This document shows, piece after piece, positions 35,139 to 55,665 of a stretch of 64,000 nt of DNA. The stretch is taken from contig NZ_CP030034.1 in NCBI RefSeq assembly GCF_006874625.1, positions 1,736,001 through 1,800,000 of the forward strand, in the 5' to 3' direction. Numbering within the stretch: the first letter of the stretch is position 1; every line of letters starts with the position of its first letter. The position numbers and the translations under genes were made by a program. The notes below the pieces were generated by a model that made no database searches, was not told where the DNA came from, and saw only the letters and a list, made by a program, of their open reading frames with translations. The DNA comes from Bdellovibrio sp. NC01. GTDB taxonomy: Bacteria; Bdellovibrionota; Bdellovibrionia; Bdellovibrionales; Bdellovibrionaceae.

Positions 35139-35169
35139 AAGGCTCTACTTAGACTGTAGAGCCTTTTCT
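35139..35169 (+). terminator. Terminator of bcp, overlapping the fibre gene's stop codon
   Basis: Perfect 10-bp stem AAGGCTCTAC/GTAGAGCCTT with a 7-nt loop and T-rich tail on the plus strand. The minus-strand stop codon (TAG) of the convergent fibre gene lies inside the left arm. Confidence 0.82.
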
Positions 35170-38100
35170 ATTTTATCCAAACGCTGTTGAAGCTTGTCGT
35201 TTTGAATTTTCAACTGATCGTTCTGTTCTTTGAGTGATGCGATTTCACGATGAAGGATCTGACTGTCAGCGTGCCACTGAGAATAGAATTCCTTGATAGC
35301 ATTGATCGCGACGTAGATGAAGGCACTGTAGTTAACGACCTTCAATTCTGTTTTATCTTTATCAGTGGGGTGCAGTTTAGCCATTTTCGTGCCGACTAAA
35401 CTGGGCGCAACCTTTTCGATTTCTTGGGCGATCACACCCATTTGTTCAGCTTTAGTTTCAGCTTCTTCTCCTAAACCATTGTACTTGAAGTATTTTGGAT
35501 TGATTCCTAAAAGCTCTTTCAGTCCTAAATCAAAGGCGTGAATATCTTTTTTAAGGCGCACATCGGAAGTGCAAGTTCCAAGCGTGCTTGAAGCATAACG
35601 TAAGCACGATGAAGTTCTAATATCACCAACAACGTCTAAAGGATAAGCTGGCGCTGTCGTTCCAATGCCTACAGTACCACTTGCAGTGATACGCATTCTT
35701 TCAAGCGGTGCGGCTGATGTTGCGAAGGTGATGGGTGCCGAGGCCCCTGTAGCTGAAATTTTCACGCCGTTTGTGATGCTAGAATTTGTAAATAAATTGA
35801 GAACGTCAGGAGATGCGCTGTGCGCGCTGCCTCCTAAAATAAGTCCTCCGGAAGAAGCCCCGTAAGCGGTGCCTCTGTTCGTTAGAACGACACCGGCTCG
35901 TGCGCTTGTTCCTGTGCTGTTGTTGTTCACGTTAAAGAATGCATCGCCATCGAAATCTTTTTCAAAGGCTAAAGGATCTGTTGGATTTGTCGTACCTATA
36001 CCAACATTGCCTGCGCCTGTCAGAGTGATGCGAGGTGTATCTGCGGTAATTAAGTGCAGCGGAACATTTGAGCCTGTGCCGACTCCCATGCTGGAGGGAG
36101 GTGTTGTTGTATAAGAACGCAAAACCACTGAATCCGCTTTCGGAATAGTACTTGTGCCCCAAGTTCCGGTCGTGCCGGTGCTGTAAGCGATCATTTGTAA
36201 ACCTGTGCCATCCGTTTCGATATCAATGGCGCTGGCTGCATTGTCGACGCTAGATGGATTGCGAACAAGGACTGCGGTATCAGCGGCTTGTGAGTTTAGA
36301 ATGTGAAGCGATTTCGTGGGCGCTATCGTTCCAATACCGACGTACCCTGTAGAATCAATTGTCACGCGATCTGCAGTCGTCGTTGTACCGAGAGCTGTTG
36401 TTGCAAAGCTAATTCTCGAACCTTGAGTACTTGAAGTAAAGTTTTCCGCTGCATAGAAGTTAATGGCGGTTTTGCCACCGGTTTGAAAAGCAGAACCCGT
36501 GTAACCAATTGCAGTGACTTGACCAAGACTGTCGTTTGCGACAATTGCACCTGGCGTTGCCTTGGCACTTTTTGCGCGCAGCAAACTAAATGTTGGAATT
36601 TCTGTATCCGAGTAAGTCAAAGTATTGATTCGTCCCGAAGGAGATGTGCCCTCACCCTCAACTAAAATTCCTGCGCGATATGGCCATACGGCGGTAGCAG
36701 AGACTGGCGTTGTTACGTGAAATGGAACTTGTGGAGACGTTGTTCCCACTCCAATCAGACCATTCGGATCTATACGCATGCGTTCAACAGGGCCTGAAGT
36801 GTTCGGGCTCGTCAAGAATGTTAAGTGAGCGCTTTGCGCCCAAAGACTACCGTTTATGGCGCGAATCGAGGCGGACGGTAAGTTGGCGCTTGCTTTGACG
36901 AAATCAATTTGTGAAAGCAGAGCGCCCCCAGATTCCTTACCAACTAGTTCTAAGGAAGTAGGGCCTTGATTTGTATAGAGTGTTAAATAACGACTTGCAC
37001 CCGGGACTGCGCCAGCAGTTGAAGTACCAATCGCTAAATTGCCTGACGTATCGAATGTTGCACGATCCGTGTTACCTGTACGCAAAACTAAATTAAAAGC
37101 ATCCGTTGTGCCCAAGGTTGCGTTGGCACCAAAACTATTGCCGCCATTTACGAAGACACCGCCGGTTCCAGTTTTAGGAAGATCCGAAGAAGCAATCGCA
37201 CGGAATGTCGGAGTTGCTGAACCTGTCGTCGGTCCCGCAAAAAAAGTTCCCGCTGTTTGTGTTCCAAATGCAGAGCCTGTGATTGAAATTGTAGAGCATG
37301 TCCACGTGCCCGTCGGTGAAGAGAATGTTAATGTCTGACTTGCCGTACAGTTGCCCGGCATCTGCGAAGATTTAATCAGAGAGCTTGCATCTGATAAATC
37401 TGCGGTTGACGGTAAAACGTTAACCCAATCCGTGCCGTTATATTTTAAATAATTTCCTGAAGCTAAAGAGGTTAGCGTAATGGCCTTGCCAGAAAGCTTT
37501 GCAATTGTAGGGTTTGGATAAGTTCCCGTCAGATCGCCGCCTGCTGTTGATAAGCCTAAGTTTGCGCGAGCTGTGGCAGCATTAGCAACGTCGCTAAGAT
37601 TGTTCGCTGGATTCAAAGGAGTGAAGCCGAGTGAGCTTTGTTTGTTATTAAATGTATTCCAGTCGGTGGAAGTTAAATAACCATTTGTAGAGCCGCTTGC
37701 TTGAGTGATCGCAATATTTGGGCTTGAGCCGCCACTTGATGTTAACGGAGCACTCGCAGTCACTGCTGTGAGTGAACCCACAGACCCGCATTGCCATCCA
37801 TTGGTCGTATCCCAAGTCAGACTTTGTCCTTGAGAAGAGCAAGTAAATGGTTTCAAAGTTGCGCCGGTTGAATTATCCGTCGCAACCAGGCGATTGATTC
37901 CAGGGTTTGCAAAAAGTTTCGACGTGGTCACGGCATTTGCCGCGATAGTTGGTGACGGATAGGTTCCAGTCAGGTCACCACCCGCAGTCGACAAACCTAA
38001 ATTCGCGCGCGCTGTCGCTGCATTCGCGAGATCGCTTAAATTATTTGCAGGATTCAGCGGAGTAAATCCCAATGCAGACGAACATTGCCAGCCATTGGTT

Positions 38101-39179
38101 GTATCCCATGTCAGACTTTGTCCTTGAGAAGAACATGTAAATGGTTTCAACGTTGCGCCGGTAGAGTTGTCCGTTGCAACGATACGATTGACTCCGGGAT
38201 TTGCAAAAAGTTTTGAAGTTGTTACTGCATTTGCCGCGATAGTTGGTGACGGATAAGTTCCCGTCAGGTCACCACCCGCAGTCGACAAACCTAAATTCGC
38301 GCGTGCTGTCGCTGCATTCGTGACATCGCTTAAATTATTTGCGGGATTCAGAGGTGTGAAGCCCAAGGCATTTTGTTTTGCTTGGAAACTTTGATAGTCA
38401 GAATTGGATAACAAACCGGCAGCAACGCCAGAATTTGCAGCGAGTGGTAAATTCAAAGTGTGCACACCACTTGAGTGAGTCCAATTCAAAATGCTGCCCG
38501 TTGCATTCACAGCAAGTGCATGCGCAGTTGCTAGGTCACCATTGATACTTTGAATTCCCGAACCGGTTGAGCCCAACTGATCTGCAACGCAGGTGAATGT
38601 GTTTCCTGAGTAAGTTAATACCTCACCCGAGGAACAATTCGCAGCCGGAAGTTGCGTTTTTAGAGCCACGTCGTTTTGCGAAAGTGTTCCTAATTTTTCT
38701 GAAGCTAAAGAATAAGCCGCGTACGGAACTGAGCGCACCACAGTATCAGGTGAAATCAATTGCCAGCCGAAACCATCCCAGAATGTTACGCGCAGTTTGC
38801 GGCCATCAGTCGTTGCTGCGCTGAAAGTGGACGTAGAGTCAGTGTTGTCTGAATTTGCGCAGGTATAAGATTTAGAATTATTAAAATAATCCAGGACCGT
38901 TGAGGTGCCTGAAGCCGGGTATTGACGTGAACCGGTGCCGATCGCAACGTCGAACACACCACTGGAGTTTCTCATGTCGATGCCTGATTTTAATTCTCGG
39001 TAAATAACGCACGAACCATCTGGGCTTGTTAGTTCGAAGATAAAATTGACGCCGTTGACTTCAAGAGGTTCTCCCGAAGACTTCATAATGCGTCCTTGAT
39101 AGGTCAGCGATGAAGGAGCACCTTGCGCCGCAAAGCTAAGCAATACCAACGGTAAAGTAACGTACAGTAGTAATCCCAT
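35145..39179 (-). CDS. Giant secreted tail-fibre-like protein with S74 intramolecular chaperone (MAT-like)
   Basis: 1344 residues. Signal peptide (about 1-20), then an N-terminal module (about 21-205) shared with the 1073-residue protein at 52444-55665: SLTYQGRI, a Cys pair, VFDVAIG, RKLRVTFWDGFGW and VRSVPYAAY. The middle is beta-rich, fibre-like and contains a 98-residue repeat twice plus a third partial copy (ATARANLGLSTAGGDLTGTY). Many NxGIGTT/VGIGT turns suggest a trimeric beta-helix shaft. The C-terminus is a Peptidase_S74 endosialidase chaperone (SDVRLKKDI...QMGVIAQEIEKVAP) ending in a coiled coil (LHREIASLKEQ to end). Resembles phage tail fibres and the mosaic adhesive trimer proteins of B. 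bacteriovorus, used for prey recognition. No Shine-Dalgarno before the ATG. Confidence 0.85.
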   Translation of the reverse strand: MGLLLYVTLPLVLLSFAAQGAPSSLTYQGRIMKSSGEPLEVNGVNFIFELTSPDGSCVIYRELKSGIDMRNSSGVFDVAIGTGSRQYPASGTSTVLDYFNNSKSYTCANSDNTDSTSTFSAATTDGRKLRVTFWDGFGWQLISPDTVVRSVPYAAYSLASEKLGTLSQNDVALKTQLPAANCSSGEVLTYSGNTFTCVADQLGSTGSGIQSINGDLATAHALAVNATGSILNWTHSSGVHTLNLPLAANSGVAAGLLSNSDYQSFQAKQNALGFTPLNPANNLSDVTNAATARANLGLSTAGGDLTGTYPSPTIAANAVTTSKLFANPGVNRIVATDNSTGATLKPFTCSSQGQSLTWDTTNGWQCSSALGFTPLNPANNLSDLANAATARANLGLSTAGGDLTGTYPSPTIAANAVTTSKLFANPGINRLVATDNSTGATLKPFTCSSQGQSLTWDTTNGWQCGSVGSLTAVTASAPLTSSGGSSPNIAITQASGSTNGYLTSTDWNTFNNKQSSLGFTPLNPANNLSDVANAATARANLGLSTAGGDLTGTYPNPTIAKLSGKAITLTSLASGNYLKYNGTDWVNVLPSTADLSDASSLIKSSQMPGNCTASQTLTFSSPTGTWTCSTISITGSAFGTQTAGTFFAGPTTGSATPTFRAIASSDLPKTGTGGVFVNGGNSFGANATLGTTDAFNLVLRTGNTDRATFDTSGNLAIGTSTAGAVPGASRYLTLYTNQGPTSLELVGKESGGALLSQIDFVKASANLPSASIRAINGSLWAQSAHLTFLTSPNTSGPVERMRIDPNGLIGVGTTSPQVPFHVTTPVSATAVWPYRAGILVEGEGTSPSGRINTLTYSDTEIPTFSLLRAKSAKATPGAIVANDSLGQVTAIGYTGSAFQTGGKTAINFYAAENFTSSTQGSRISFATTALGTTTTADRVTIDSTGYVGIGTIAPTKSLHILNSQAADTAVLVRNPSSVDNAASAIDIETDGTGLQMIAYSTGTTGTWGTSTIPKADSVVLRSYTTTPPSSMGVGTGSNVPLHLITADTPRITLTGAGNVGIGTTNPTDPLAFEKDFDGDAFFNVNNNSTGTSARAGVVLTNRGTAYGASSGGLILGGSAHSASPDVLNLFTNSSITNGVKISATGASAPITFATSAAPLERMRITASGTVGIGTTAPAYPLDVVGDIRTSSCLRYASSTLGTCTSDVRLKKDIHAFDLGLKELLGINPKYFKYNGLGEEAETKAEQMGVIAQEIEKVAPSLVGTKMAKLHPTDKDKTELKVVNYSAFIYVAINAIKEFYSQWHADSQILHREIASLKEQNDQLKIQNDKLQQRLDKIEKALQSK
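37500..38366 (-). repeat. Coding tandem repeat in the fibre gene (98-residue unit)
   Basis: Unit of 294 bp, copy 1 at 38073-38366 and copy 2 at 37779-38072, differing by a handful of residues (for example NRIVATD versus NRLVATD). A partial third copy of 44 residues is at 37500-37631, after an unrelated insert. Each unit starts LGFTPLNPANNLSD and ends in WDTTNGWQC. Confidence 0.88.
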
Positions 39180-39186
39180 ACACTTG

Positions 39187-39214
39187 ATATCGGCTTACTA
39201 AATAAAAAAAATTA
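39187..39214 (-). promoter_or_regulatory. Sigma-28-like promoter of the 1344-residue fibre gene
   Basis: Minus-strand -10-like box GCCGATAT (39187-39194) and -35-like TAATTTTT (39207-39214), 12 nt apart, compared with the FliA consensus TAAAGTTT-N11-GCCGATAA. The -10 box ends exactly 7 nt before the ATG, which would put the start of transcription at or next to the start codon. A near-identical arrangement precedes the other fibre gene. Confidence 0.5.
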
Positions 39215-39336
39215 AGTTAACTCGAGATAATATGAGACGAATTCGCTGAATGTGTTCCAGGTCTAGTCCCTCGACGAGTCCATAAAAACGAATGCGTGAA
39301 GGCTTCGAATTTAAATGTCTCAGTGGTGGAACGCAA

Positions 39337-39362
39337 AAGAGCCGTCTGGTGAGACGGCTCTT
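39337..39362 (-). terminator. Terminator of htpG
   Basis: Perfect 11-bp stem AAGAGCCGTCT/AGACGGCTCTT with GGTG loop. On the minus strand it is followed by TTTTGCG, 35 nt after the htpG stop. Confidence 0.8.
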
Positions 39363-39396
39363 AATTTAGATAACAAATGTCTTCTTACGACACAGC

Positions 39397-41274
39397 TTAG
39401 TGTTTTGTGGCATCAGCAGCCTGAACCATCAGTTCCGCAATTTGCTGCGAAAACTTCACTGGATCAGGGATGTTTGAGCCTTCGTTCAACAATGCTTGGG
39501 CAAAAAGAATTTCTGTCCATTTCGTTTGTTGTTCAGGAGTCGCTTTTAACATCTTTTCAAACACTGGATGCTTTGGATTGATCTCCATGATGCGTTTCAC
39601 TGGGGTGCCATACTCACGACCCATTTGCGATAACAACTTCTGCATGTGTGCGGAAGGGTCTTGAGACGCAGACACCAAGCACGCTGGTGTGTTTGTCAAA
39701 CGCTCTGAAAGAACAACGTCTTTGACGTCGTTTTCCAAAGTTTTCTTCATCGTATCAAGGACAGGGCGAAGAGTGAATTCAGCTTGCTTTAACTCTTCTT
39801 CTTTTTGTTTTTTCTCTGCCTCTGAATCAAGGTCTAAACCTTGCGCCATAATGCTTTGCAATTTTTTGCCTTTGAATTCTGGCATTGAGTTCACAACCCA
39901 TTCGTCCACAGGATCAACCAACAGAAGAACTTCGTAGTTTTTCTCTTTCAATTTTTCCAAGTAAGGGCTGTGGCTGACTTGAGTCAAGTTGTCACCCGTG
40001 ATGAAGTAAATGTCTTTTTGACCTTCCTTCATGCGAGTCACGTATTCTTCAAGAGTCGTCATTTTGTCTGAAGACGTTGAATGGAACAAGGTCAGTTCTT
40101 CAAGTTTTTCTTTATTCGCGCCATCGCTAGGAATGCCTTCTTTTAAAGTGGCGCCGAATTCAGTCCAGAAGTTTTCATACTGGCTGCGATCGTTTTTCAA
40201 AAGATCCTTCAAAGCGGCAAGAACCTTGTTTGTCACATTTTTGCGAATCTGCGTGACTTGACGGTCTTGTTGTAAGATTTCGCGCGACACGTTCAAGGAA
40301 AGATCGGCGCTGTCGACCAAACCTTTTACGAAGCGCAAGTAAGTTGGAATCAACTCTTTGCAATCAGCCATGATGAACACACGTTTGATGTAAAGGCTTA
40401 GACCGTAAGCAGAATCCTGCATGTTAAAGTTGAACGGCTTTTTAGCAGGGATGTACATAAGCGCGTTGAACTCCATTGTACCTTCCGCTTTGTAGTGGAT
40501 GGTTTTCAATGGTTCGTTCCAGTCGTGTGACAAGTGCTGGTAGAATTCCTTGTGTTCTTCTTTCGTCACTTCAGAAGGGGATTTCAACCAGATCGCTTTT
40601 TGTGAATTGATTGTTTCGTCTTCAGCTTTATCGTTTTTCAATTTAATTGGATGCGCGATAAAGTCAGAATATTTTTTAACCAAAGACTTCAATGTCCAAG
40701 TATCAGTGAAGTCTTGAACTTCATCTTCTTCTTTAAATGCCTTCAAATGCAAAGTGATTGTCGTGCCGGTACCACCTGGACGAGGAACCGAATCAATCGT
40801 GTAAGTGCCATCGCCATTTGATTCCCACACTGTGCCGTCATTGGTGCCGGCTTTTTGGGTATGCAAAGTCACTTTATCAGCAACCATAAATGCAGAATAG
40901 AAGCCAACACCGAATTGACCAATCAATTCGGGTTTGTTTTTCATTTCTTCATTCATTTGCACGAAGGCTTTTGCGCCAGAACGGGCGATTGTTCCGATAA
41001 ACTGTGTGACTTCTTCTTGAGTCATACCGATACCGTTATCGATGATTTTCAAAGTGCGTGCTTGAGTGTCTGGTTCCAAACGGATCTCAGGTTGCCAGTT
41101 TTCAGGCAACAAAGCCGCGTGAGTCAAAGATTGGAATTTAAGTTTGTCGATAGCATCAGAGGCGTTGGAAACGAGCTCTCTTAAAAAGATTTCTTTGTGT
41201 GAATACAAAGAGTGAATAACGATATCTAATAGCTGTTTAATCTCTGCGTTAAAACTTTGGGTTTGTTTCGCCAT
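39397..41274 (-). CDS. htpG: HSP90-family molecular chaperone HtpG
   Basis: 625 residues, the usual length of HtpG. GHKL ATPase motifs are LRELVSNASDAIDKL (catalytic Glu region), DNGIGMT and IGQFGVGFYSAFMVAD with the ATP lid. Middle domain (about 230-500) includes SREILQQDR with the conserved Arg, and the C-terminal dimerisation domain follows. Cytoplasmic client-protein chaperone. A TTGAGGAGTT ribosome-binding site precedes the ATG. Monocistronic. Confidence 0.97.
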   Translation of the reverse strand: MAKQTQSFNAEIKQLLDIVIHSLYSHKEIFLRELVSNASDAIDKLKFQSLTHAALLPENWQPEIRLEPDTQARTLKIIDNGIGMTQEEVTQFIGTIARSGAKAFVQMNEEMKNKPELIGQFGVGFYSAFMVADKVTLHTQKAGTNDGTVWESNGDGTYTIDSVPRPGGTGTTITLHLKAFKEEDEVQDFTDTWTLKSLVKKYSDFIAHPIKLKNDKAEDETINSQKAIWLKSPSEVTKEEHKEFYQHLSHDWNEPLKTIHYKAEGTMEFNALMYIPAKKPFNFNMQDSAYGLSLYIKRVFIMADCKELIPTYLRFVKGLVDSADLSLNVSREILQQDRQVTQIRKNVTNKVLAALKDLLKNDRSQYENFWTEFGATLKEGIPSDGANKEKLEELTLFHSTSSDKMTTLEEYVTRMKEGQKDIYFITGDNLTQVSHSPYLEKLKEKNYEVLLLVDPVDEWVVNSMPEFKGKKLQSIMAQGLDLDSEAEKKQKEEELKQAEFTLRPVLDTMKKTLENDVKDVVLSERLTNTPACLVSASQDPSAHMQKLLSQMGREYGTPVKRIMEINPKHPVFEKMLKATPEQQTKWTEILFAQALLNEGSNIPDPVKFSQQIAELMVQAADATKH

Positions 41275-41383
41275 AATAACTCCTCAATACAAATACGGGC
41301 CCGCTCATTGCTGACAGCAAGCGTCCTTAGAAATATGAGGATTGGATGGAGTTTGGCAAGGCGCTAAGAGTAAAAAAATGAGC

Positions 41384-42163
41384 TTATTTGATGGCTTTTA
41401 TGACATTTGAGACTTTGTCTAAAGCGACTTTGCCCCACGGCGTTTTTTCGCAAGAGACGCGACCAAAGTGCCCTTCGTTCATTTGTTTGACCGGCTGAAA
41501 TCCCATATCTGCCGCAGGATTTTTTGTCAGATAGTCTTCAATTTCAAACTTATAACCCAAAGTTCCCTGAACGCGGTTTTTTTCAAGAAGCTTAAATACC
41601 GCAGCCATATTTTCTTCATCACGCACCAAAGAGATCGTGCGAGCACTGTATTTTTTTAGAATCGGAGCGACATCATTGCCATAGAAGCGTTTGCTTAACA
41701 CCGCCAGGGTAAAGTCTTTTTTATCAAGATAAGCTTCAAGATCGGTGTTTTTAGCGTCGATATATTTTTTTAAAGTGATCAGACCCATTTTGTATGGCGT
41801 CTTGGTGAAGGATGCCCCGAAGTAAGCGAACTCTTCACGCTGTGGGCTTTGCAGCAAAATCAGTGTGCAATAGTGGTTTTTCTTTTTTAAAGAAACTTCG
41901 CCGCGGGGAATGCTCTGTAAATGGTAGCGGTGTTCGTATTCAGGAAGAGATTTTTCAATCTGTCTGTGAAGATCGGCGATAGGACCGCTGGCTGCTTGGA
42001 TATCAATAATTTCGTGTGCAGTGTTGGTTGAGATGAAAGGTGGCATATCTGCCACGAACCAATTGATGACTTCTTTTGCCTGAGCATTGAATCCGCTAAG
42101 CAGAGTCAGTGCGAAGACCCATGTACTGAAATGTTCCATAGATTTTAGTTTATTCGAAAACAC
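41384..42163 (-). CDS. Orphan periplasmic solute-binding-like protein (SBP_bac_3-type, TIGR02285-like)
   Basis: 259 residues from GTG 42163, which has GGAGGAG upstream; ATG 42139 is an alternative. Signal peptide to about AQAKE. The mature protein begins with VINWFVADMPPF, the opening strand of class-F amino-acid-binding-type proteins; conserved spacing to HYCTLILLQSP (single-domain ligand strand) and VSCEKTPWG at the end matches the paralogue at 48428-49333. No ABC permease or ATPase genes accompany it, so it may be a sensor component or a free binding protein. Confidence 0.7.
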   Translation of the reverse strand: MFSNKLKSMEHFSTWVFALTLLSGFNAQAKEVINWFVADMPPFISTNTAHEIIDIQAASGPIADLHRQIEKSLPEYEHRYHLQSIPRGEVSLKKKNHYCTLILLQSPQREEFAYFGASFTKTPYKMGLITLKKYIDAKNTDLEAYLDKKDFTLAVLSKRFYGNDVAPILKKYSARTISLVRDEENMAAVFKLLEKNRVQGTLGYKFEIEDYLTKNPAADMGFQPVKQMNEGHFGRVSCEKTPWGKVALDKVSNVIKAIK

Positions 42164-42243
42164 GAACTCCTCCAAGAGCTTCGTGTTTTTGAAAACTAAT
42201 TTAACGCGAAGTCTAGGGTCAAAAAGACTCCGCCGTGGGGGTA

Positions 42244-43323
42244 TTAGTAATGAAAATTCATTCTGTCTGCAATTGTTTTAGGCAATTGCGGAACTTTCGA
42301 GCGCGGAATGAAGAACGTCGTTAAGTTAAAGAAGTCTGTGAAAATCTTGTGCTTCGAAGTCGCATCGGCAAGATATTTGTGACCACTTGAACCACCCGTA
42401 CCAATTTTTTGTCCCAACATACGATAAGCCATCAAAGCATGGCGATAGCGCCACGTTGTCATTGTCTCATCGATGTCTAGCAATGCACGAATAATTCTGA
42501 ATGGCGTCTGCAGAATGGGTTGATCGCGGTAGAGCTGAATCAACAACGCCGCATGCATCGCTTTGTAGCTAAGACGGAAGTGACCGCCTGCGCGCAATTC
42601 GTTGAATGCTTTTTCGTCAAACAAGGCGTCGAAAGTTTTCAATGAAGCTTCAAGGCCTTTGATGTTTTTTTCTTTATCTTCTTCCGGCAAACGTGGGTTT
42701 GCTTTTACTGTGTTGATGTCTTCTTGGAACATCTGATTCACAGCCTGCTTGTACGTATCCCAGAAGTTGAAATTTTCACCTTGCAGGAACGGAGTGCGCT
42801 CGAGCCATTTTTCCACCGCATCAAACAACGAACTTTGATTTAACACGTCCATCATTTCTTTTGCTTGGTCGTCAGTCAGCGATTTGTAGAAGGGAGATTG
42901 ATTGTAAGCCAAGCGGTCGTCAATGCGCAGACCTAGCTTTGTTTCAATCAAGCGCCATTGGTAGCTTTGGAACCCTGACGCTGGATAAAGCATGTCGCGG
43001 AAATCCAAGAAATCAAGGGGAGTCATCGTTTCTAAAACGTCAACCTGGCCAATGATTAACTTCAAGATGCTGACGATACGCTCTAAGCGAGCGCTCGCGC
43101 GACCCATTTCTTCTTCTTGAATTTGTGGCTGTTGGAAAGTTTTAAGAACTGAATCCAATTCAAAAAGAATTTGTTTGAACCACAACTCATAAGTTTGGTG
43201 AACGACGATAAAAAGCATTTCATCGTGAGCAGGTTTTCCATACTCAACACTTTTCGGGTGTTGCGCATGCAAGATTTTATCGATGTCTAGATAGTTGTGG
43301 TAGTGCACCGGAGGATATTTCAT
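42244..43323 (-). CDS. kynA: Tryptophan 2,3-dioxygenase
   Basis: 359-residue haem enzyme that opens the tryptophan ring to N-formylkynurenine, the first step of the kynurenine route. Family marks are YHNYLDIDKIL, DEMLFIVVHQTYELWFKQILFELDSV (substrate and haem region), SGFQSYQWR, and GTGGSSGHKYL near the C-terminus. The haem-axial His lies in TTWRYRHALMA. Start overlaps the stop of the PLP-lyase gene (ATGA), and that gene is preceded by the ureohydrolase gene, so the three form an operon. Confidence 0.95.
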   Translation of the reverse strand: MKYPPVHYHNYLDIDKILHAQHPKSVEYGKPAHDEMLFIVVHQTYELWFKQILFELDSVLKTFQQPQIQEEEMGRASARLERIVSILKLIIGQVDVLETMTPLDFLDFRDMLYPASGFQSYQWRLIETKLGLRIDDRLAYNQSPFYKSLTDDQAKEMMDVLNQSSLFDAVEKWLERTPFLQGENFNFWDTYKQAVNQMFQEDINTVKANPRLPEEDKEKNIKGLEASLKTFDALFDEKAFNELRAGGHFRLSYKAMHAALLIQLYRDQPILQTPFRIIRALLDIDETMTTWRYRHALMAYRMLGQKIGTGGSSGHKYLADATSKHKIFTDFFNLTTFFIPRSKVPQLPKTIADRMNFHY

Positions 43324-44345: not shown

Positions 44346-44348
44346 AGA

Positions 44349-45895: not shown

Positions 45896-46196
45896 GGCTG
45901 ACCTTGTTCCATGGCTCCGAAATCCGGTCAATAGTAAAACTACTCTAAAGTTTGACTGTGCGAGTCAACTGCTTAACAAAAGGGCAATTTTCAGCATTTT
46001 TCAGAGAGAAGTTGCGCAGTCTAATAAACTCTTAACTTTAAACTGTTATTTGAAACAATTTACTAAAATTTGCCGGAAATGGGCCTGACTATTTGGGGCC
46101 TAAAATCATAAAGTGAGGACAGATTCGTTTGCATTTGATAATTGCCTGCCGACATTTCTTGCGTGGTTATTCAGGAAACGCTTAAACTATCAGCAC
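45896..46196 (+). other. 301-nt intergenic region between divergent genes
   Basis: AT-rich stretch with no coding potential that I can support. It must carry the promoter of the leftward tryptophan-dioxygenase operon and of the rightward gene at 46197. I see no convincing -10/-35 pair, operator repeat or hairpin. A GTG at 46113 could extend the rightward gene by 28 codons, but those residues look like non-coding sequence. Confidence 0.4.
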
Positions 46197-47042: not shown

Positions 47043-48384
47043 CTAAAGCTGTCGCACTGGATTCTTTATTCTGATGCTCATGCAGAAAATCTTCTTTAAC
47101 GCGATCATAGAACGAATGTTTTTGCAGCAGACTTGAAACCCACATGGCCACAGTCGCTGCAATCATCATTGGGAACAGCGCCGAGTGACGATCTGTCATT
47201 TCAAAAATTAAAATAAATGCAGTGAATGGCGTGCGCATGAAACCGGTTAGGAAGGCGATCATACCAGCCATAATCAAAAGATGGTGATTATGAGTCCAGA
47301 AGAACTCCGAAAGCAAAGAGCCCATCGTTGCACCGACCGCTAATGATGGCGCGAATAAACCGCCGGCAACTCCAGCAAGTGACATTAATAGAGGCCCTGC
47401 AATACGCACTAGCATATCAAACGGTGTGGCCCAGTTGTTTTTAAATAACAGATCCATGATCAGGACCTTGCCACCGCCAACTCCCGTTGCGCTTACAAAA
47501 TAAATTCCCAGCCAGAACAACAAACCACACGCAAGATTCAGAGCGATCAGTTTTTTTATTCCCTTTAAACGTTTTCTGAATTTTGAAATTTCATAAAGGG
47601 CCGAACCAAAATACGATCCCATGGCGCCAGCAAGAATGCCAATGACGACAACAAAAAGATAAGTTTGGAACACAACACTTTCCAGGTGCGGGAATCCGAA
47701 ATAGAGATAACCGCCTGAAAAAGTTTGCACGATAATGCCGGTTGTGATGATCGACCACAGAACGTATGTTTTAAAGTTGTTAAAACTATCTTTGCTTAAC
47801 TCTTCAAGAGCATAAGCGATACCACCCAGGGGTGTGTTGAAAGCGGCAGCAAGACCTGAAGCACCACCGGCAAGAATGAAAGTGCGCAACGTCGTTTGGC
47901 GAATCCATTTCGTTGATTTTTCGCCAATGCGATAAAAGATGCCCGACGCGATTTGTAGTGTAGGACCTTCTTGACCGACAGCACCACCACCTAAGACACA
48001 CACCAAAGACGCAATGATTTTAACTAAGATCACACGAATGCCGATCAATTTGCGAATGATCATCTTGTCTTTAGAGGGATCAAGTTCATTTGCGATTAAC
48101 ATCTGCGGAATACCGCTGCCCCCGGCTTGTGCTGCGATCTTATGCGGAATAAACCAGCTTAAAAACACCGTTGCTAGGGTGGCCAGTAACGAAACGCTCC
48201 AGTGGGTTTCGCGCAAAATCCATGACGCCGCTTCCTCGACTTGAAAGAACAGTTTGGAATAGATAATGGCCGTACCTGCAGCCACAAGACTGGCAATCAG
48301 ATAAGGCACGACACGAAGTGACTCTTCGTATTCAACTTTCTTTAAAAGATATTGAGCTTTAGAGCGTAAAGAAGAAATAAGCAT
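47014..48384 (-). CDS. ClC-family chloride channel/antiporter
   Basis: 456 residues, about ten to twelve membrane helices. Selectivity motifs are GGSGIPQ (GSGIP), GAVGQEGPT with the gating Glu, and GLAAAFNTPLGGIAYALEEL, where the last Glu corresponds to the internal proton-transfer Glu of H+/Cl- exchangers. The third loop GVAGGLFAPSLAVGA is also present. Both Glu residues retained point to a proton-coupled antiporter and not a passive channel; that is inference. No cytoplasmic CBS domains. Stands alone. Confidence 0.92.
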   Translation of the reverse strand: MLISSLRSKAQYLLKKVEYEESLRVVPYLIASLVAAGTAIIYSKLFFQVEEAASWILRETHWSVSLLATLATVFLSWFIPHKIAAQAGGSGIPQMLIANELDPSKDKMIIRKLIGIRVILVKIIASLVCVLGGGAVGQEGPTLQIASGIFYRIGEKSTKWIRQTTLRTFILAGGASGLAAAFNTPLGGIAYALEELSKDSFNNFKTYVLWSIITTGIIVQTFSGGYLYFGFPHLESVVFQTYLFVVVIGILAGAMGSYFGSALYEISKFRKRLKGIKKLIALNLACGLLFWLGIYFVSATGVGGGKVLIMDLLFKNNWATPFDMLVRIAGPLLMSLAGVAGGLFAPSLAVGATMGSLLSEFFWTHNHHLLIMAGMIAFLTGFMRTPFTAFILIFEMTDRHSALFPMMIAATVAMWVSSLLQKHSFYDRVKEDFLHEHQNKESSATALVSSEKESLS

Positions 48385-48427
48385 CTCTTAAAGAAATACG
48401 CCTCTTATTTCAAAATGCAAATCTTAA

Positions 48428-49333
48428 TTAATCTTTGTGAAGAGAAGGTGCGTTGGTCCATGTTTCTGAAGAGCGACGTTGATAGAATTCATCAAATTCT
48501 TTGCGATAGCTCTTTAATAAAGCCTCGGAATGCCAGGACTCCATCAGCTCTTTATATTTAGGTGTCCCTGATATCCTGCGCAGTATTGAATCCAGGCGCG
48601 AAATGGTTTTTAAACCCCAGTCTGTTTTACTGCACGCGATATGCACAACAACTAAGCCTCGTTGTTCTTCGATTTCAGCAAATGAAAAGTTGCCGATAAC
48701 AAGTTTATTGCTTTGCAGATAGCGGGCGACTTCTTCGTATTCGATCGCATAATCGAAGCGTTTTGCCGACAGCATATTCAAAGTGCTGGAGGAATCAGGA
48801 ATGCCCTGCAACGTTTCGACATTTGATTTGTTTTTATGTGTTTTAATAATCGCATCAAGTGTTGAACCGTAAGATCTGTCCGCCGATAAACCCGCGCGCA
48901 AATCTTTTTGATCAAGCAAACGCGCAAGCGATACGACTTTGGCTTCAAACATTTTGTTTTTAAAGTCTTCTGTGCGGAACACTAATTGAGGTGGTGGTTG
49001 AATATAAAACGCCGTGAAGTAAGCATACTTTTCGCGCTCCGGGGTGCGCAGATGCGAGACATTGCAAGTGTAGGGACTTTGTTTGCGCATTTGCGCGAGG
49101 GAATTGAGGGAGTAATACAACGATTCAAACTGCGTATCCGGCATTTGACTTTGCAGATAATCCAGCAGTTTGTCGATATAGCCTTGGCCAGCTCGTGGTC
49201 CCGAAGTTTCAAAGTAGGGTGGCCAATTAGGTTTGTACCAAATGATGCGTTCTTTTGTAGAAGCGGCTTCAGCAAAACTTGAACTGAAGAGGAATGACAC
49301 AGAAAAAATAAACGAGAAGAGTGAAGCCAACAT
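48428..49333 (-). CDS. Orphan periplasmic solute-binding-like protein (TIGR02285-like)
   Basis: 301 residues with signal peptide (about 1-23, AEAAS). Starts IIWYKPNWPPYFETSGPRAGQGYID, the signature of this binding-protein branch; TCNVSHLRTPEREKYAYFTAFY aligns with the first-lobe strand of the protein at 41384-42163, and HIACSKTDWG near the C-terminus aligns with its VSCEKTPWG. Two paralogues of this kind in one 64-kb window, both without transporter genes, suggest they are not transport components. Confidence 0.72.
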   Translation of the reverse strand: MLASLFSFIFSVSFLFSSSFAEAASTKERIIWYKPNWPPYFETSGPRAGQGYIDKLLDYLQSQMPDTQFESLYYSLNSLAQMRKQSPYTCNVSHLRTPEREKYAYFTAFYIQPPPQLVFRTEDFKNKMFEAKVVSLARLLDQKDLRAGLSADRSYGSTLDAIIKTHKNKSNVETLQGIPDSSSTLNMLSAKRFDYAIEYEEVARYLQSNKLVIGNFSFAEIEEQRGLVVVHIACSKTDWGLKTISRLDSILRRISGTPKYKELMESWHSEALLKSYRKEFDEFYQRRSSETWTNAPSLHKD

Positions 49334-49373
49334 GAAGTCTCCGCAATTGACTTCATTTTAACGGGGCTTAGCC

Positions 49374-49919
49374 TTATTGCACACTATGTAGTTTTGCTGG
49401 CTTGTAGTCTGACAAGGGCCAAAGCTGATCGACCCAAGAATTTAAAGCAAAATTCTTAAACTGACGGTGGCGGTCTTTCGCATGCAGTTGAGTTTGCTCA
49501 AAGGATTCAGAAAGATAAGCCAGATCTGCTTTTGAATCGTCCATCAAACGTAATGCAAGGGCGTTCAATATTTCAGAGCTATGTAAACCTTGAAGTTCTG
49601 TTTGCGCGATACTTTCACCAGAATAAGTTTTAACACGCATTAAAAGATGCGCATGGCTTTGGCGAAGATCGGCTAGGTCAATCGGTGCCAGATCGTGCAA
49701 CGATTGATTCCAGACGTGTTTTAAGCGCAAATCCAAATACTCAAAGACTTGGAAGCCAAGAATTTTATCGCCGTAAAGTAAAACACTCACCTGATCGCCG
49801 GGCCACTGTGTTGCTGGTGATTTTTGTTGAAGATAAAGATTGTAAACACGGTTGAACAGCTCGACATGACTGTGAGGAAGGGACCGAGGGTTCAAAAGAA
49901 GAAATTGAAATCCGTGCAT
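49374..49919 (-). CDS. Cytoplasmic protein of unknown function
   Basis: 181 residues, soluble, no signal peptide. Sequence has beta-rich first half (QFLLLNPRSLP, VSVLLYGDKILGFQVF) and helical second half (LLMRVKTYSGES, ILNALALRLMDD). No family recognised. It follows the HD-GYP-like gene on the same strand, but a terminator lies between them, so its promoter would have to be in the short gap or be read-through. Confidence 0.5.
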   Translation of the reverse strand: MHGFQFLLLNPRSLPHSHVELFNRVYNLYLQQKSPATQWPGDQVSVLLYGDKILGFQVFEYLDLRLKHVWNQSLHDLAPIDLADLRQSHAHLLMRVKTYSGESIAQTELQGLHSSEILNALALRLMDDSKADLAYLSESFEQTQLHAKDRHRQFKNFALNSWVDQLWPLSDYKPAKLHSVQ

Positions 49920-49942
49920 GGATTTCTTATCGGAAGATCCAG

Positions 49943-49969
49943 AAAAAAGAAGAGCCTCTTTTTAGAGGC
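49943..49969 (-). terminator. Terminator of the HD-GYP-like gene
   Basis: GCCTCT/AGAGGC stem with TTTT loop; on the minus strand it leads into a T-rich run. The gene's TAA stop (49962-49964) lies in the loop and stem. Confidence 0.65.
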
Positions 49970-50888
49970 CCCTGATGATGTCGTTTAAAAATTGAAGATG
50001 TTGTAAAGGATGTTTGCCCACGTGTTCGATCATAAGCTTTTTCGCAGCTTCTGCTTTCGGCACGCCTTCGAATGTGATCAGACGATCCATCGCATTTGCT
50101 GAAGAAACGATCACTGCAAGCGGGTCGGTGTCTTTTTCGCGAAGACCCAAGGGGCCTGTGCCGTTCGAAGTTTCTTCATGTTGTGCGATGATATTGATAA
50201 CAGCTTGGTCAAAGTGCTTTTTGTCTTGAACTTTTTCAGCACCAGCTTGGGGATGGCGTTTCCAGTTTACAAGATCTTCGCCAGCCATTTTATCAAGTGG
50301 TTGCACCAAGTTGATATTCGTATTGTAGTGACCGTAATCGTGTAACAAAGCTCCCAGAGTCAGAAGCTGCGTTTTCTTTGGATCGTTCATTCCTAGTTTT
50401 TGCGCAAGCGCAATCGCGAGGGTAGAAACAGTCACACCGTGATGGGCAATATTCTTATCGGTATTTTCTAAATTCATTACAGTGTTTAATGCCTGAGCAT
50501 TGCTCATAATGAAATTAACATACTTCCCTGCGGCGTCTTTGGCGTAGTTATACGATTCGACGTTTTCTGGATTCTCAAATACTTCTTCAGCATTGCTTTG
50601 TTGCGCGCCTTGAATGATCTCGGCACGAGTGCCGATGTCTTTGTTTGAGTTGTTGTCGTAAGCGATCTCGATGTTTTTTTGAAGGTAGTTGCGATAACTC
50701 ACTTCTTCGTCTGTCAGGATGAACATCTTCTTGAGTTTTTTCTCTTTCAAGCGTTGCAGACGATCGCCTTCAAAACTGTCCCCACGACGAAGGTAGAGGA
50801 TCATTTTCTCATTGATCTTGATATAGGCGTTAAAGTCGATCTTCTGATCTCCGCGTAGAGTACTCACGCGAATAGAAACATAATCCAT
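49962..50888 (-). CDS. Variant HD-GYP-family protein
   Basis: 308 residues. N-terminal region (about 1-75) resembles the small beta/alpha domain often found before HD-GYP in this genus. The HD domain runs from about 130: TLGALLHDYGHYNTN keeps the HD dyad, RHPQAG and QHEETSNGTGP keep part of the metal set, but GYP is GPL and the first His of HHE is Gln. Metal binding and some phosphodiesterase activity on cyclic-di-GMP remain possible. It is exactly back-to-back with the pseudo-HPt gene, sharing one promoter region. Confidence 0.75.
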   Translation of the reverse strand: MDYVSIRVSTLRGDQKIDFNAYIKINEKMILYLRRGDSFEGDRLQRLKEKKLKKMFILTDEEVSYRNYLQKNIEIAYDNNSNKDIGTRAEIIQGAQQSNAEEVFENPENVESYNYAKDAAGKYVNFIMSNAQALNTVMNLENTDKNIAHHGVTVSTLAIALAQKLGMNDPKKTQLLTLGALLHDYGHYNTNINLVQPLDKMAGEDLVNWKRHPQAGAEKVQDKKHFDQAVINIIAQHEETSNGTGPLGLREKDTDPLAVIVSSANAMDRLITFEGVPKAEAAKKLMIEHVGKHPLQHLQFLNDIIRGL

Positions 50889-50923
50889 TGCCTGCCATTC
50901 CTTCGGTTGCTATCGTTGACTTA

Positions 50924-51442
50924 ATGTCGATTGATAAAGAGATTGTAGAAGATTTTGTAAGCGAGTCAAAGACCTTGATTGAAGAGTTGATTGACCTTCT
51001 CGAAAGTATTGAAGGTGATTTTTCTCGTGTTCATGAATTGGCTGACTATGGAAACAACGTGGACCGCATTATGGGGGGCGCAAAAAATTTAGCGCTCATG
51101 GCAGATGGGGATCACGCACTTCATATGATTTCTGACTATGCGGCTTTGTGTAAAGCTGTCGGTTATAAGGCGTCACAAATCAAAAACAATGAAGGTTTTT
51201 TCGACGTCTGTGTGGCGTTGTTGTTAGATGCTACGGAAACGCTTGAAGTTCTGCTACAACACATTCACGATCCTGCAGCAAAATTGCGTCAAACAATTCC
51301 TGAAGCTTTTATCGAAAGATTGCGTTGGGTGTCTCAACAATTCAGTGACGAATATTCTATGAGTGTCGGCACAGGACAGACTGAGAGCAAGAAAATGGCT
51401 CAATCAGAAATCGACGATCTTTTAAAAAAGCTCGGCCTTTAA
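50924..51442 (+). CDS. Pseudo-HPt domain protein with CheZ-like C-terminal CheY-binding tail
   Basis: 172 residues from ATG 50924 (TTG 50888 would add 12). The body is a helical bundle like a CheA P1/HPt domain: EDFVSESKTLIEELIDLLESIEGDF then NNVDRIMGGAKNLALM, where the HxxKG phosphoacceptor His is replaced by Asp47 and Lys by Met50. No His remains at that site. The last 14 residues, MAQSEIDDLLKKLGL-like (159-172), closely match the E. coli CheZ C-terminal peptide that binds CheY (QVDDLLDSLGF). A CheY-P binding adaptor is inferred. No chemotaxis kinase is adjacent, but it is divergent from the HD-GYP-like gene. Confidence 0.65.
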   Translation: MSIDKEIVEDFVSESKTLIEELIDLLESIEGDFSRVHELADYGNNVDRIMGGAKNLALMADGDHALHMISDYAALCKAVGYKASQIKNNEGFFDVCVALLLDATETLEVLLQHIHDPAAKLRQTIPEAFIERLRWVSQQFSDEYSMSVGTGQTESKKMAQSEIDDLLKKLGL

Positions 51443-51453
51443 TTTTATACAGA

Positions 51454-52431
51454 TTAATAACAAATCACGACAAGACCAACTGCGCCTGAACCCGCAGTTG
51501 CGGCTGTGCTTCCGCCAGGCAAAGAACCCGCGCCGCCGCCGCCACCTCCGTAGCTGCCAGCAGTACCACCATTTTTACCTTCATAGCCACCACCACCGCC
51601 GCCACCAGATCCTAGAGTAGGGGACGTGGAAATATCTGATGCTATCGCAGGAGTTGAAGGAGGAGTACCCAAAGCTTGAGAACCCGTGGCTCCAACGCCA
51701 CCGAATCCGCCGCCGCCGTTACCACCATTGCCACCTTTAGCGCCATTTGCAGGGGCGACTGCAGAGACTCCGGCGCCTTTAGGTCCCGCAGCACCACCAC
51801 CGCCTCCGCCACCACCAGAGCCTGATGCCGTGACACCGATTGAACCGTTACCACCAGAGTACACAAGAACATTGCCCGATGAAGTTGCCGGAGTAGGAGT
51901 CCCACCAACACCCACCGTGCCGACACTACTTGCTGAAGTGCCACCGCCGCCACCACCACCAGCGATGTAAGTTGTGCCGCCAATAGTAATGGAAGTCGCT
52001 CCTCCTGCGGTTCCCGCAATACCTGTATCTTTTGAAGAAGCTCCAGCGCCACCAGCGCCGACTGTGTAAGAAAGAACTTGATTCGCAGTTAATGTCGCGT
52101 TGGTGATTTTCACCATCGCGCCGCCACCACCGCCACTGCCACCGTATTTACCAAAATTGGTGTCAGTTGTTGAACCCCCACCACCGGCGCCGATAAGTAA
52201 AATCCAATTTTTAGAATTATTCGCGGCGGTCCACGTATTCGGAACTGTAAATGTGCCAGAGCCCGCGGTGTTATAATAAGTCTGCACCGTTGTGCACACG
52301 GCAGCGCTTTGATTATTGCTCATCATAGCAAACGGGATTAGTTGAGCATGGGAAGCTGTTGATGCGAGAAGAGTGAAAGAAAATACTCCAAGACATAAAC
52401 GTTTGCGAAGGGATGAGTTTTTAAAAATCAC
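51454..52431 (-). CDS. Secreted glycine-rich protein
   Basis: 325 residues from GTG 52431 with GGAGG upstream. Signal peptide about 1-30 (ASHAQ). After TVQTYYNTAGSGTFTVPNTW, which is the entry sequence of the glycine-rich domain found in phage tail tips and bacterial surface proteins, the protein is a near-continuous Gly-rich sandwich (GGGGG runs) to the end. Probably extracellular and adhesive. It lies 12 nt downstream of the second fibre gene on the same strand, so it is co-transcribed and likely part of the same surface structure. Confidence 0.75.
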   Translation of the reverse strand: MIFKNSSLRKRLCLGVFSFTLLASTASHAQLIPFAMMSNNQSAAVCTTVQTYYNTAGSGTFTVPNTWTAANNSKNWILLIGAGGGGSTTDTNFGKYGGSGGGGGAMVKITNATLTANQVLSYTVGAGGAGASSKDTGIAGTAGGATSITIGGTTYIAGGGGGGGTSASSVGTVGVGGTPTPATSSGNVLVYSGGNGSIGVTASGSGGGGGGGGAAGPKGAGVSAVAPANGAKGGNGGNGGGGFGGVGATGSQALGTPPSTPAIASDISTSPTLGSGGGGGGGYEGKNGGTAGSYGGGGGGAGSLPGGSTAATAGSGAVGLVVICY

Positions 52432-52443
52432 GCACCCTCCGAG

Positions 52444-55400
52444 TTAGTAGCCGTCAATTGATGCAAGGTAAACGTAGTTGCCCATCACAATGAAAGTGAA
52501 CAGGGCGTGTTTGCCTGCCGTCTGTACAAGACTGACGGATCCAGTTTTTAAAGTAAGGGCTGTCGATCCTGCATCACTGAATGTGCTGAAGGCGCAAGTG
52601 CCACCATTGGTACCTTGAACGGCGAGTGTGTAAGTCGCACCACTTTTCATGTTGTTCAGGGTGATCGAACCGCAATCAGTTGTTGTGTACTGCAAGTTCC
52701 CAGTCGAAAAATCGATAACTGTGCCTGAACCGTTGGATACCGCAGTGGATTTGATTGTTCCATTGACGTCGAGTGTGGCTGTAGCAGTGCCTAACCCGAT
52801 GCCAACCATGCCCCCGGTCGGATTCAGCATGATCGAGCCGTGACCGCTATTGTTTAAACCACCGTAGATCGAAACAGTTCCAGGATTGCCCGAGCCAGTG
52901 CCGCCATTGTTACTTTGGCCGGCCATTAAGGTGATGCTGCCACCATTTCCGTTATTTACGCCATAGCCCGCCGTAAGGGAAATATCTCCACCATTGTATG
53001 TTGTCGTGGTTTGTGAGTTCGCATTTCCCGACATTAGTGAGATGGGACTGCCTGAGCCTTCATAGGAAGAGCCAGCGTTCAAACTGATGCTGCCAGCTGA
53101 ACCCGTGGAAGCAATAGTGGAGAAGACCATGTTTTTACCAGTCGGACCAGTGAAGCCGTTCCCAGAGACGTAACTTGGATACCAAGTCGAACCTCTCCAA
53201 GTGAATTTGTAGTAACTGCCATTGCGAGGGATGTTGTAAGTCGCTAATCCTGCATCGAATAATATGCCGTCAGGAGTGTTCGCCGTAAGAGCTCTAGTGC
53301 TAGAGTTGTCTGCTACAATGACCCACCAACCCACTGGCAAACCAGAAGTTGCAGGCAAAGTCACCGTAGAGTTCGCACTCGGTGTGAAATTCAAAGTTTG
53401 ATAACCATCCGCCGCCGTCAGAGTTTTTGAAGCCGTGAAAACTGTCGAGTTGTATTTGTCTTTGAAGGGAATCCACGCGGAACCGTCGTTATATTCAAGC
53501 GTCGTCAAATCCGAGTTGTAACGAACGACACCCGCGTTCGCAGTTGGTTGTTGCGCGGTCGTACCTGCAGGCAAACGAAGACCATCGGATCTTGCAGCAA
53601 GGTCGAGAGTATATCCCGGTGCTGTTGTTCCAATCCCCATGTTTCCAGAAGAGTTGATCACCATACGATAAGTCACGGCATTTTTATCGAAGACACCGAA
53701 GGTGCCAGCGCCCGGGCCATTCGCAGAACCCGTCGAAATTAATAGATACTCGCGGCCGCCAGTGTCTGTACTTTTCAAAGAAAGTTCAGGGCCTGCAACG
53801 CCAGAGGATTCAATTTTAATTCCGTCATCACCCGTACTTGCATTTGAGATATGAAGTTTATAATCAGGAGCCGCCGTACCGATACCGATGTTACCACCAG
53901 AAGCAATCGTCATGCGAGATGTGTTGTTCGTAACAAATGAAAGAGATTTGTTATCAGTCGTACCCAACACAGCATTCGCTCCGAAAGCGTTACCACCATT
54001 CGAGAAAATGCCTGCTGAAGTTAACGAATAACAGCCAGCGATGCCTGAAGCATCAAAGCCAATCGTTTGACCAATTGTGCAATTAAACGAAGTGAAACCT
54101 GTGCCAGTTCCATTCGTCATCAAGATAGAATTTGCATTCAAGCTTGTTGAACCCGTACCACCTTTATTGACCGGAACGGCAGAAGGGAAGTTTGCTGGAT
54201 CAGCAGAGATTGTGCCGGAAGAAACCGCGATACCAGAGCCGACTTGAACTACGCCCGATGTAGACGTTGTTGCTGCATTCACAGAGATCGCCGGAGTCGT
54301 TGAACCATTCGTCACAACAATGGGCGCCGTGCCACTGACAGTGGAAACAGTTCCTGTCGACGGGGAGATCCATTTTAGACCCGACGCTTGTGAAGAGTCC
54401 GCAGCTAAGATTTGACCGTCAGAACCTGCATTAAAACGAATATTGTTAGAACCATCGAAGGTTATCAAATCACCCTTCGTGGTAAGCGGTGATAAAGCAT
54501 TAAACGCCGGAGCTTTCGTTGTTTGTCCCGTACCACCATTTGCGATTGGCAGAGTGCCCGTAATGTCTGAAGCTAAACTCACAGCAGAACCATTTGCCGC
54601 AGAAGTGAGGCGACCTTGAGCATCCACTGTGATATTCGCACGAGTGTAAGAGCCTGCTGTCACAGCCGTGTTTGCAAGATTCACAGTCACCGAACCCGAA
54701 GTGCCACCACCAGATAAACCAGTACCCGCAGTCACGCCTGTGATCGAACCGCCGCCACCCGCTGACGGAGTTGCCGGAGCCCAGTTCGTGCCATCGTAAG
54801 TTAAAACTTGTCCCGAAGTTGGAGCCGTCGTCGCTACATTCACGCCGCGAATTTTTGCAACAGTAGGGCTTGGCAATGTACCACTCAAGTCACCACCCGC
54901 TGTGGCGCCACTTTGTAGTGCGCCCACGATACGCGAATCATTACCAGCAGCCACCGTATTTGCAGCTGTGCCCACATTCACAGTCAAAGCCGGAGTTGAA
55001 GTTCCCGTCGCAACAGTCAAATACGAATTCGATGAAGTCACCGCAGTCACTGTGCCTGAACTTGGAATCGGCGAACACACCATGTTCGTGCCATTGAAAG
55101 TCAGGAAGTTATTTGCAGGACAAGTCGCAACCGGCATGATCGCTTTCAACAAGAAATCTGTTGAAGAATAGTTACCTAATTTTTCAGCGGAACGTGCGAT
55201 CGCCGCATAAGGAACCGAGCGCACAGTTAAGTCCGGCGACAAAGTTTTCCAACCTGTGCCATCAAAGAACATCACACGCAGTTTTCGTGTATCGCCGGAA
55301 GCCGCGGCATATGTTGAACCGCCAGAGCACGTATAAGTTTTTGTATTATCGAAAACATCAAGAATTGTCAGCGAGCCATCGGAAGGATAAGTGACGGAGC

Positions 55401-55665
55401 CGCTACCGATCGGTACGTCAAAAACACCTTTAGAGTTCGTCATGTCATAACCACTGATTTGTTCTTGATAGATGATGCAAGTGCCAGCAGCATTTGTGAC
55501 TTTAAAGATGAAGCTTACGTTATTGTATTCAAGAGGAGTATTATCAGAAGCTTCGATTTTGCCTTGATAACTTAACGACGCAGGTGACGCAAAAGTGCCC
55601 AAAGGAAAAAGCACCGCAAAAAAAACCATGAGACTGCGAAGGTACGAGCGAGTTTGCATCATCAT
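52444..55665 (-). CDS. Giant secreted tail-fibre-like protein (MAT-like), no S74 chaperone
   Basis: 1073 residues. Signal peptide (about 1-25) and an N-terminal module (about 28-205) matching the 1344-residue fibre: SLSYQGKI, GVFDVPIGSG, RKLRVMFFDGTGW, VRSVPYAAI, SAEKLGNYSS. The shaft is built of repeated GTVSxVS, NGGTGQTT and IGIGTxAP phrases of phage fibre type. The C-terminal part replaces the chaperone with a glycine-rich region (GSISLNAGSSYEGSG and similar, about 870-960) and a small beta-domain with three Cys that probably forms the tip. Three consecutive ATG codons start the gene, with no Shine-Dalgarno. Confidence 0.83.
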   Translation of the reverse strand: MMMQTRSYLRSLMVFFAVLFPLGTFASPASLSYQGKIEASDNTPLEYNNVSFIFKVTNAAGTCIIYQEQISGYDMTNSKGVFDVPIGSGSVTYPSDGSLTILDVFDNTKTYTCSGGSTYAAASGDTRKLRVMFFDGTGWKTLSPDLTVRSVPYAAIARSAEKLGNYSSTDFLLKAIMPVATCPANNFLTFNGTNMVCSPIPSSGTVTAVTSSNSYLTVATGTSTPALTVNVGTAANTVAAGNDSRIVGALQSGATAGGDLSGTLPSPTVAKIRGVNVATTAPTSGQVLTYDGTNWAPATPSAGGGGSITGVTAGTGLSGGGTSGSVTVNLANTAVTAGSYTRANITVDAQGRLTSAANGSAVSLASDITGTLPIANGGTGQTTKAPAFNALSPLTTKGDLITFDGSNNIRFNAGSDGQILAADSSQASGLKWISPSTGTVSTVSGTAPIVVTNGSTTPAISVNAATTSTSGVVQVGSGIAVSSGTISADPANFPSAVPVNKGGTGSTSLNANSILMTNGTGTGFTSFNCTIGQTIGFDASGIAGCYSLTSAGIFSNGGNAFGANAVLGTTDNKSLSFVTNNTSRMTIASGGNIGIGTAAPDYKLHISNASTGDDGIKIESSGVAGPELSLKSTDTGGREYLLISTGSANGPGAGTFGVFDKNAVTYRMVINSSGNMGIGTTAPGYTLDLAARSDGLRLPAGTTAQQPTANAGVVRYNSDLTTLEYNDGSAWIPFKDKYNSTVFTASKTLTAADGYQTLNFTPSANSTVTLPATSGLPVGWWVIVADNSSTRALTANTPDGILFDAGLATYNIPRNGSYYKFTWRGSTWYPSYVSGNGFTGPTGKNMVFSTIASTGSAGSISLNAGSSYEGSGSPISLMSGNANSQTTTTYNGGDISLTAGYGVNNGNGGSITLMAGQSNNGGTGSGNPGTVSIYGGLNNSGHGSIMLNPTGGMVGIGLGTATATLDVNGTIKSTAVSNGSGTVIDFSTGNLQYTTTDCGSITLNNMKSGATYTLAVQGTNGGTCAFSTFSDAGSTALTLKTGSVSLVQTAGKHALFTFIVMGNYVYLASIDGY

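Follow-up and report, generated by a model that had tools for sequence, protein, structure and literature searches.

Two fibre genes and a glycine-rich companion

The window analysed here is a 64,000-nucleotide stretch of the genome of Bdellovibrio sp. NC01 (contig NZ_CP030034.1, positions 1,736,001 to 1,800,000). Its minus strand encodes two long fibre proteins, P0001 and P0002, which begin with the same N-terminal domain and which we assign to the MAT (mosaic adhesive trimer) superfamily, the surface fibres for gripping prey described in Bdellovibrio bacteriovorus (Caulton et al. 2024, PMC10769870), together with a secreted glycine-rich protein, P0003, immediately behind P0002. The features are as follows.

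35145..39179, minus strand: P0001, S74-type MAT fibre, 1344 aa (ORF; Pfam S74 and DUF5907 repeats)
39120..39179, minus strand: P0001 signal peptide, aa 1-20 (hydrophobic stretch ending ..FAAQGA, judged by eye)
38586..39119, minus strand: P0001 shared N-terminal MAT domain, aa 21-198 (alignments; all-beta model)
36300..36833, minus strand: P0001 beta-helix module, aa 783-960 (phmmer match to PDB 8oml, 7.1e-33)
35394..35567, minus strand: P0001 Peptidase_S74 intramolecular chaperone/protease, aa 1205-1262 (PF13884, 4e-11)
52444..55665, minus strand: P0002, non-S74 MAT fibre, 1073 aa (ORF; shared domain)
55588..55665, minus strand: P0002 signal peptide, aa 1-26 (hydrophobic stretch ending ..PLGTFA, judged by eye)
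55072..55587, minus strand: P0002 shared N-terminal MAT domain, aa 27-198 (alignments)
53512..54042, minus strand: P0002 beta-helix region, aa 542-718 (phmmer match to Bd2133, 8ond, 9.2e-10)
52771..53103, minus strand: P0002 glycine-rich repeats, aa 855-965 (read from the sequence)
52447..52770, minus strand: P0002 C-terminal tip domain, aa 966-1073 (recurrent tip family)
51454..52431, minus strand: P0003, secreted and glycine-rich (Gly_rich_2), 12 bp behind the end of P0002

Both open reading frames picked out in the original prediction are present, and their N-terminal modules align as it had described (53% identity over about 175 residues), with every motif quoted for this region in place. 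The whole proteins match each other by BLASTP at an E-value of 2e-57, and the P0001 domain, used as a query on its own genome, retrieves that of P0002 at 3.9e-53. The S74 chaperone tip attributed to one of the two proteins belongs to P0001, where an SDxxxK-type motif, SDVRLK, starts at residue 1205 within the PF13884 match; the glycine-rich stretch and small domain attributed to the other are those of P0002, in which a Pfam scan found no S74 domain. P0001 matches phage tail-fibre PHROGs in profile comparison and has a full-length relative in Bdellovibrio sp. BIN15 (L131; 54.6% over 1403 columns). The shafts of both proteins match crystallised MAT beta-helices, homology from which a trimeric state is predicted. 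Going by construct length, since the source table carries no names, 8oml is probably a Bd1334 construct, and 8ojn, which is matched by aa 568-692 of P0002 (phmmer, 5.6e-8), is probably the tip of Bd3182.

Some 13 kb of ordinary chromosomal genes separate P0001 from P0002. Each fibre gene stands alone among housekeeping genes, P0001 preceded by htpG and P0002 by a queG-like gene, and tail or virion genes were sought beside both and not found, the neighbours being ordinary chromosomal genes.

The MAT family and the exchange of tips

The architecture of P0001 and P0002 has already been published for the MATs of B. bacteriovorus (Bd3182, Bd2133, Bd1334, Bd2439, Bd2734, Bd2740; PMC10769870), so that the core finding is known and the window contributes two new members. 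Like those proteins, both begin with a signal peptide (by eye) and a conserved N-terminal domain, rich in beta structure and some 130 aa long, continue in a homologous beta-helix shaft, and end in a tip that is S74 with its SDxxxK motif in P0001 and non-S74 in P0002; and in both species the paralogues are many. MATs sit on the predator surface, S74 self-cleavage has been reported in Bd3182, and Bd2439 binds O-antigen (PMC10769870). The family is a proposed explanation for how one predator recognises many prey.

A genome-wide profile search with the shared N-terminal domain, which had been put forward as a check on the original prediction, finds this base domain in 30 genes, the highest number among the 24 genomes of the genus searched (range 3 to 30). 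This differs from the 21 MATs published for B. bacteriovorus (PMC10769870), a number that our calibration genome G001 reproduces, with 21 matches to the divergent-domain profile and 20 to the canonical one. Twenty-three of the 30 end in S74 and the remaining seven in five other tip families, and every one of the 23 S74 matches in the genome lies within an open frame of a MAT gene. The 28 canonical members have no recurrent neighbours of note, tandem MATs excepted. On C1, three MAT genes stand in tandem at ~3353400-3369300 and two at ~2037700-2047500; the genes in these arrays share large blocks and are likely substrates for recombination.

The proposal that tips have been exchanged in modular fashion on a common base has held up well. 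A tree of the 30 base domains places the seven non-S74 members such that at least six tip-class changes are needed, out of a maximum of seven, a count that is weak by itself because the tree is poorly resolved (3 of 27 branches starred). Direct pairs make the stronger case: an S74 MAT at 577816 and a non-S74 MAT at 1314470 are 66% identical over 886 residues and then run into unrelated tips, and the first 286 residues of P0002 are 60% identical to the S74 MAT at 2251968. The P0002 tip is itself widespread, its C-terminal 384 aa being matched in 19 of the 24 genus genomes, with most matches reaching its end, and it is also borne by the MAT at genome position 3880933. It has no close match among PDB sequences, a difference from the B. 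bacteriovorus MATs, and a search for viral relatives of the tip found no close one; tblastn of P0002 against phages returned, among the matches listed, matches to the shaft only (aa 330-800). As for the shafts, which had been said to diverge, it is their arrangement that differs; their modules are related, being of the GIGTTxP beta-helix type and changed in number and order. BLASTP also aligns stretches of the fibre repeats and of the beta-helix modules, so that P0001 and P0002 are, to judge by these alignments, mosaics of related blocks. The sequences show that both tips and shaft blocks have been exchanged between MAT genes on a common base, a conclusion that is well supported for the tips.

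We think it very probable that P0001 and P0002 are two of the approximately 30 MAT fibres of a Bdellovibrio species, secreted, held at their base and contacting prey with their tips. Each would be secreted by way of its signal peptide, after which the Ig-like N-terminal domain would most likely lie at the predator surface and retain the fibre there. Homology to solved MAT chains predicts, after the base, a long shaft in which triple beta-helix modules form a trimer, and the C-terminal tip would make contact with the prey through glycans or other epitopes of its surface. The S74 domain of P0001 is probably an intramolecular chaperone that would cleave itself off after trimerisation; P0002 has a small independent domain in its place.

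The glycine-rich protein behind P0002

P0003 is the sole Gly_rich_2 protein of this genome, and its position directly behind P0002 is a further difference from the B. bacteriovorus MATs; a secreted glycine-rich protein behind a MAT gene goes beyond the main text of PMC10769870. Its start codon is GTG, preceded by GGAGGG, and its PF21722 match (2e-9) passes the Pfam gathering cut-off, with 38.3 bits against 24.3. PHROG matches are to tail fiber assembly and minor tail proteins (~3e-9), and the Pam3 fibre 7yfw (gp24) is matched weakly (7e-4). BLAST found no homologue in the 23 other genus genomes, which suggests that P0003 was gained recently, and a search for viral relatives found no close one. 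Terminator and promoter scans around P0002 and P0003 were uninformative, and a single-sequence structure of P0003 (pLDDT 41) was discarded as unusable.

Within the Bdellovibrionaceae, four MAT-like fibres (L067, L068, L084, L085) carry the Gly_rich_2 domain as a fused tip, and at five loci (the window, L066, L071, L072 and L094) a total of six free-standing glycine-rich ORFs come straight after fibre genes; of these loci, L066 has two such ORFs in tandem, L072 falls below the Pfam cut-off, and L094 has its fibre cut by the contig end, with the base unseen. The domain is also found on three lipoproteins, two prepilin-like proteins and five small secreted proteins that stand in isolation. Beyond this family there are three more MAT fusions (L293, L307, L312) and two split cases (L286, L287) among many isolated ones. 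On the evidence of gene order, then, the succession of a fibre and a glycine-rich tip is recurrent.

At L086 (9682-10896) and L092 (3094-4413), prepilin-like N-termini are fused to a glycine-rich C-terminal domain, which suggests adhesins that present a tip of this kind at the end of a pilus. The isolated small secreted proteins (L087, L089, L090, L091, L093) share an IPF-[AS]-FWK-like mature N-terminus, to which the start of P0003 (QLIPFAMM) corresponds in part, and a neighbouring protein in L087 bears such a start on a different, cysteine-containing domain. The possibility that this start is a second docking tag was considered and rejected, all matches to the pattern inside the genus being chance.

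P0003 is probably a co-expressed surface adhesin, an assignment we make more guardedly than that of the fibres. That it is a secreted adhesin or matrix protein in its own right, which only happens to share the P0002 transcript, strikes us as a proposition as easily right as wrong: five of the 11 free-standing Bdellovibrionaceae members lie away from MATs, and the lack of BLAST homologues elsewhere in the genus is in keeping with it, but adjacency to fibre genes is repeated in unrelated lineages.

In T-even phages and in S16- and T2-like phages, the gene for gp37, the long tail fibre, is followed by that for gp38, a glycine-rich tip. By analogy, P0003 is perhaps a separately encoded distal cap that stands to the P0002 fibre as gp38 stands to gp37, so that the tip would be made of two proteins; this is a possibility that we take seriously without leaning towards it. 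P0003 resembles gp37/gp38 of S16 and Pam3 gp24 in its glycine-rich motifs, in its weak gp24 match and in gene order, whereas it differs in being bacterial, in having a signal peptide of its own and in that its pairing with P0002 is known from gene order alone. The glycine-rich tip of Pam3 gp24 in turn resembles gp38 of S16 (PMC9608196). The cap would account for the tight spacing behind P0002 with a separate ribosome-binding site, for the combination of PF21722 with a tail fibre assembly PHROG, and for the fused and adjacent cases listed above, inside the family and outside it; with at most 30 MATs among several thousand genes, chance adjacency comes to about 1% or less per gene. However, the mature N-terminus (QLIPF..) recurs in isolated glycine-rich proteins from other genera, which lack an adjoining MAT, one of the upstream fibres (L094) is truncated, and the P0002 tip is already complete; because that tip recurs in genus members that have no P0003, P0003 is not needed for it. 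The glycine-rich companion suggests that the predator may rely on the same device as phages, a fibre tip that can be exchanged because it has a gene of its own.

The base domain and its lipoprotein neighbours

In every copy the base domain comes straight after the signal peptide, and 15 of its columns, two cysteines among them, are invariant across all 30 copies of the genome. It had been allowed that the region might turn out to be a general, low-information beta domain; the invariant columns argue that it is specific in sequence, even though its fold is Ig-like. A model made from 14 sequences (the window plus loci from a pattern scan) is all beta, with a mean pLDDT of 80.8 and about 90 over residues 11-128. 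Foldseek searches with this model against PDB and BFVD gave no match at E <= 0.001, in agreement with the statement that the MAT N-terminal domain has no PDB homologue (PMC10769870), and a second structural look returned Ig-like domains with a VIA Z of 6.3 at best, a value that does not rise above the background expected from common Ig-like arrangements. The predicted fold is Ig-like, with no clear PDB match. The domain is present in 61 of the 66 genomes of the family and in 88 of 291 sampled genomes of the phylum; outside the phylum, genomes were touched only by the pattern scan, whose 12 loci are all Bdellovibrio. The viral contigs searched encode no relative of it.

What the MAT N-terminal domain binds on the predator is an open question of PMC10769870, in which the docking role of the base is likewise inferred. 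We note that a small lipoprotein ORF abuts upstream of 28 of the 62 divergent-domain MATs and of none of the 54 canonical ones (strict lipobox filter; Fisher 8e-10), and that under the same filter none of 84 other ORFs has such a neighbour. About 14 further divergent MATs qualify by eye, a tally made only after looking. With domains clustered at 80% identity the counts are 24/49 divergent against 0/46 canonical (4e-9), and at 65% they are 15/24 against 0/14 (1e-4); at 55% the canonical set shrinks to two clusters and the test is without power. Six of the eight seeds of the divergent profile were picked after their lipoproteins had been noticed, and with the seeds removed the count is 22/54. 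The lipoproteins form six clusters with no detectable similarity to one another, which argues against one inherited coincidence. This genome has two cases of its own, L030 (M3628979p) and L029 (M2443495p), and relatives in which the lipoprotein abuts or overlaps upstream include L067, L068, L071, L072, L186, L187, L195, L199, L203, L210, L240, L243, L244 and L252; P0001 and P0002 have no recurrent upstream neighbour.

The lipoprotein is a candidate docking partner of the divergent MAT N-terminal domain. Divergent MATs would dock on it, and canonical MATs on an element encoded in trans. These genes offer concrete, testable candidates for what the domain binds on the predator. They are absent from the main text of PMC10769870, and one literature search found no report of a link between MATs and lipoproteins; it is on this link and on the glycine-rich companion, both of which go beyond that main text, that the interest of the present comparison would rest.

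The shared domain could instead be a trimerisation or export signal, and its invariable place after the signal peptide, together with the lack of a partner encoded alongside canonical MATs, would suit such a role. We consider this unlikely, since the coupling of divergent members to small lipoproteins fits a surface anchor and full-length Bd2133 (residues 21-1031) makes fibres in vitro, so that export is not needed for assembly (PMC10769870).

Phage fibres and spikes with an S74 chaperone, such as K1F and the T5 L-shaped fibre, are like P0001 in their SDxxxK S74 domain, and like the MAT fibres in their GIGTTxP repeats and, by homology only, in a trimeric beta-helix. They are unlike P0001 and P0002 in that the latter are chromosomal, carry a signal peptide and begin with a base domain that the viral contigs lack. 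It is most improbable that P0001 and P0002 are true phage tail fibres of a prophage or tailocin: MAT shafts and S74 do have matches among tail-fibre PHROGs of phages and among the fibres of cyanophages or pelagiphages, but each gene has a signal peptide and a lone position among housekeeping genes, the base recurs across the family with no relative in the viral contigs searched, and 30 scattered copies are not a phage module.

Returning to surface-held predator fibres, we tentatively suggest that the MATs of the Bdellovibrionota can be multi-gene devices, made up of a surface lipoprotein on which the N-terminal domain docks, the fibre, and a gp38-like glycine-rich tip. Complete operons of this kind are present in two relatives, L071 (9364-15083) and L072 (1922-10643), each with three genes for a small lipoprotein, an S74-type MAT fibre and a secreted glycine-rich protein; P0002 and P0003 would then be the fibre-tip half in this genome.

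The window also encodes, at 41384-42175 and 48428-49333 on the minus strand, two secreted proteins that resemble periplasmic solute-binding proteins, and a similar-looking protein lies close to the fibre operon of L071.
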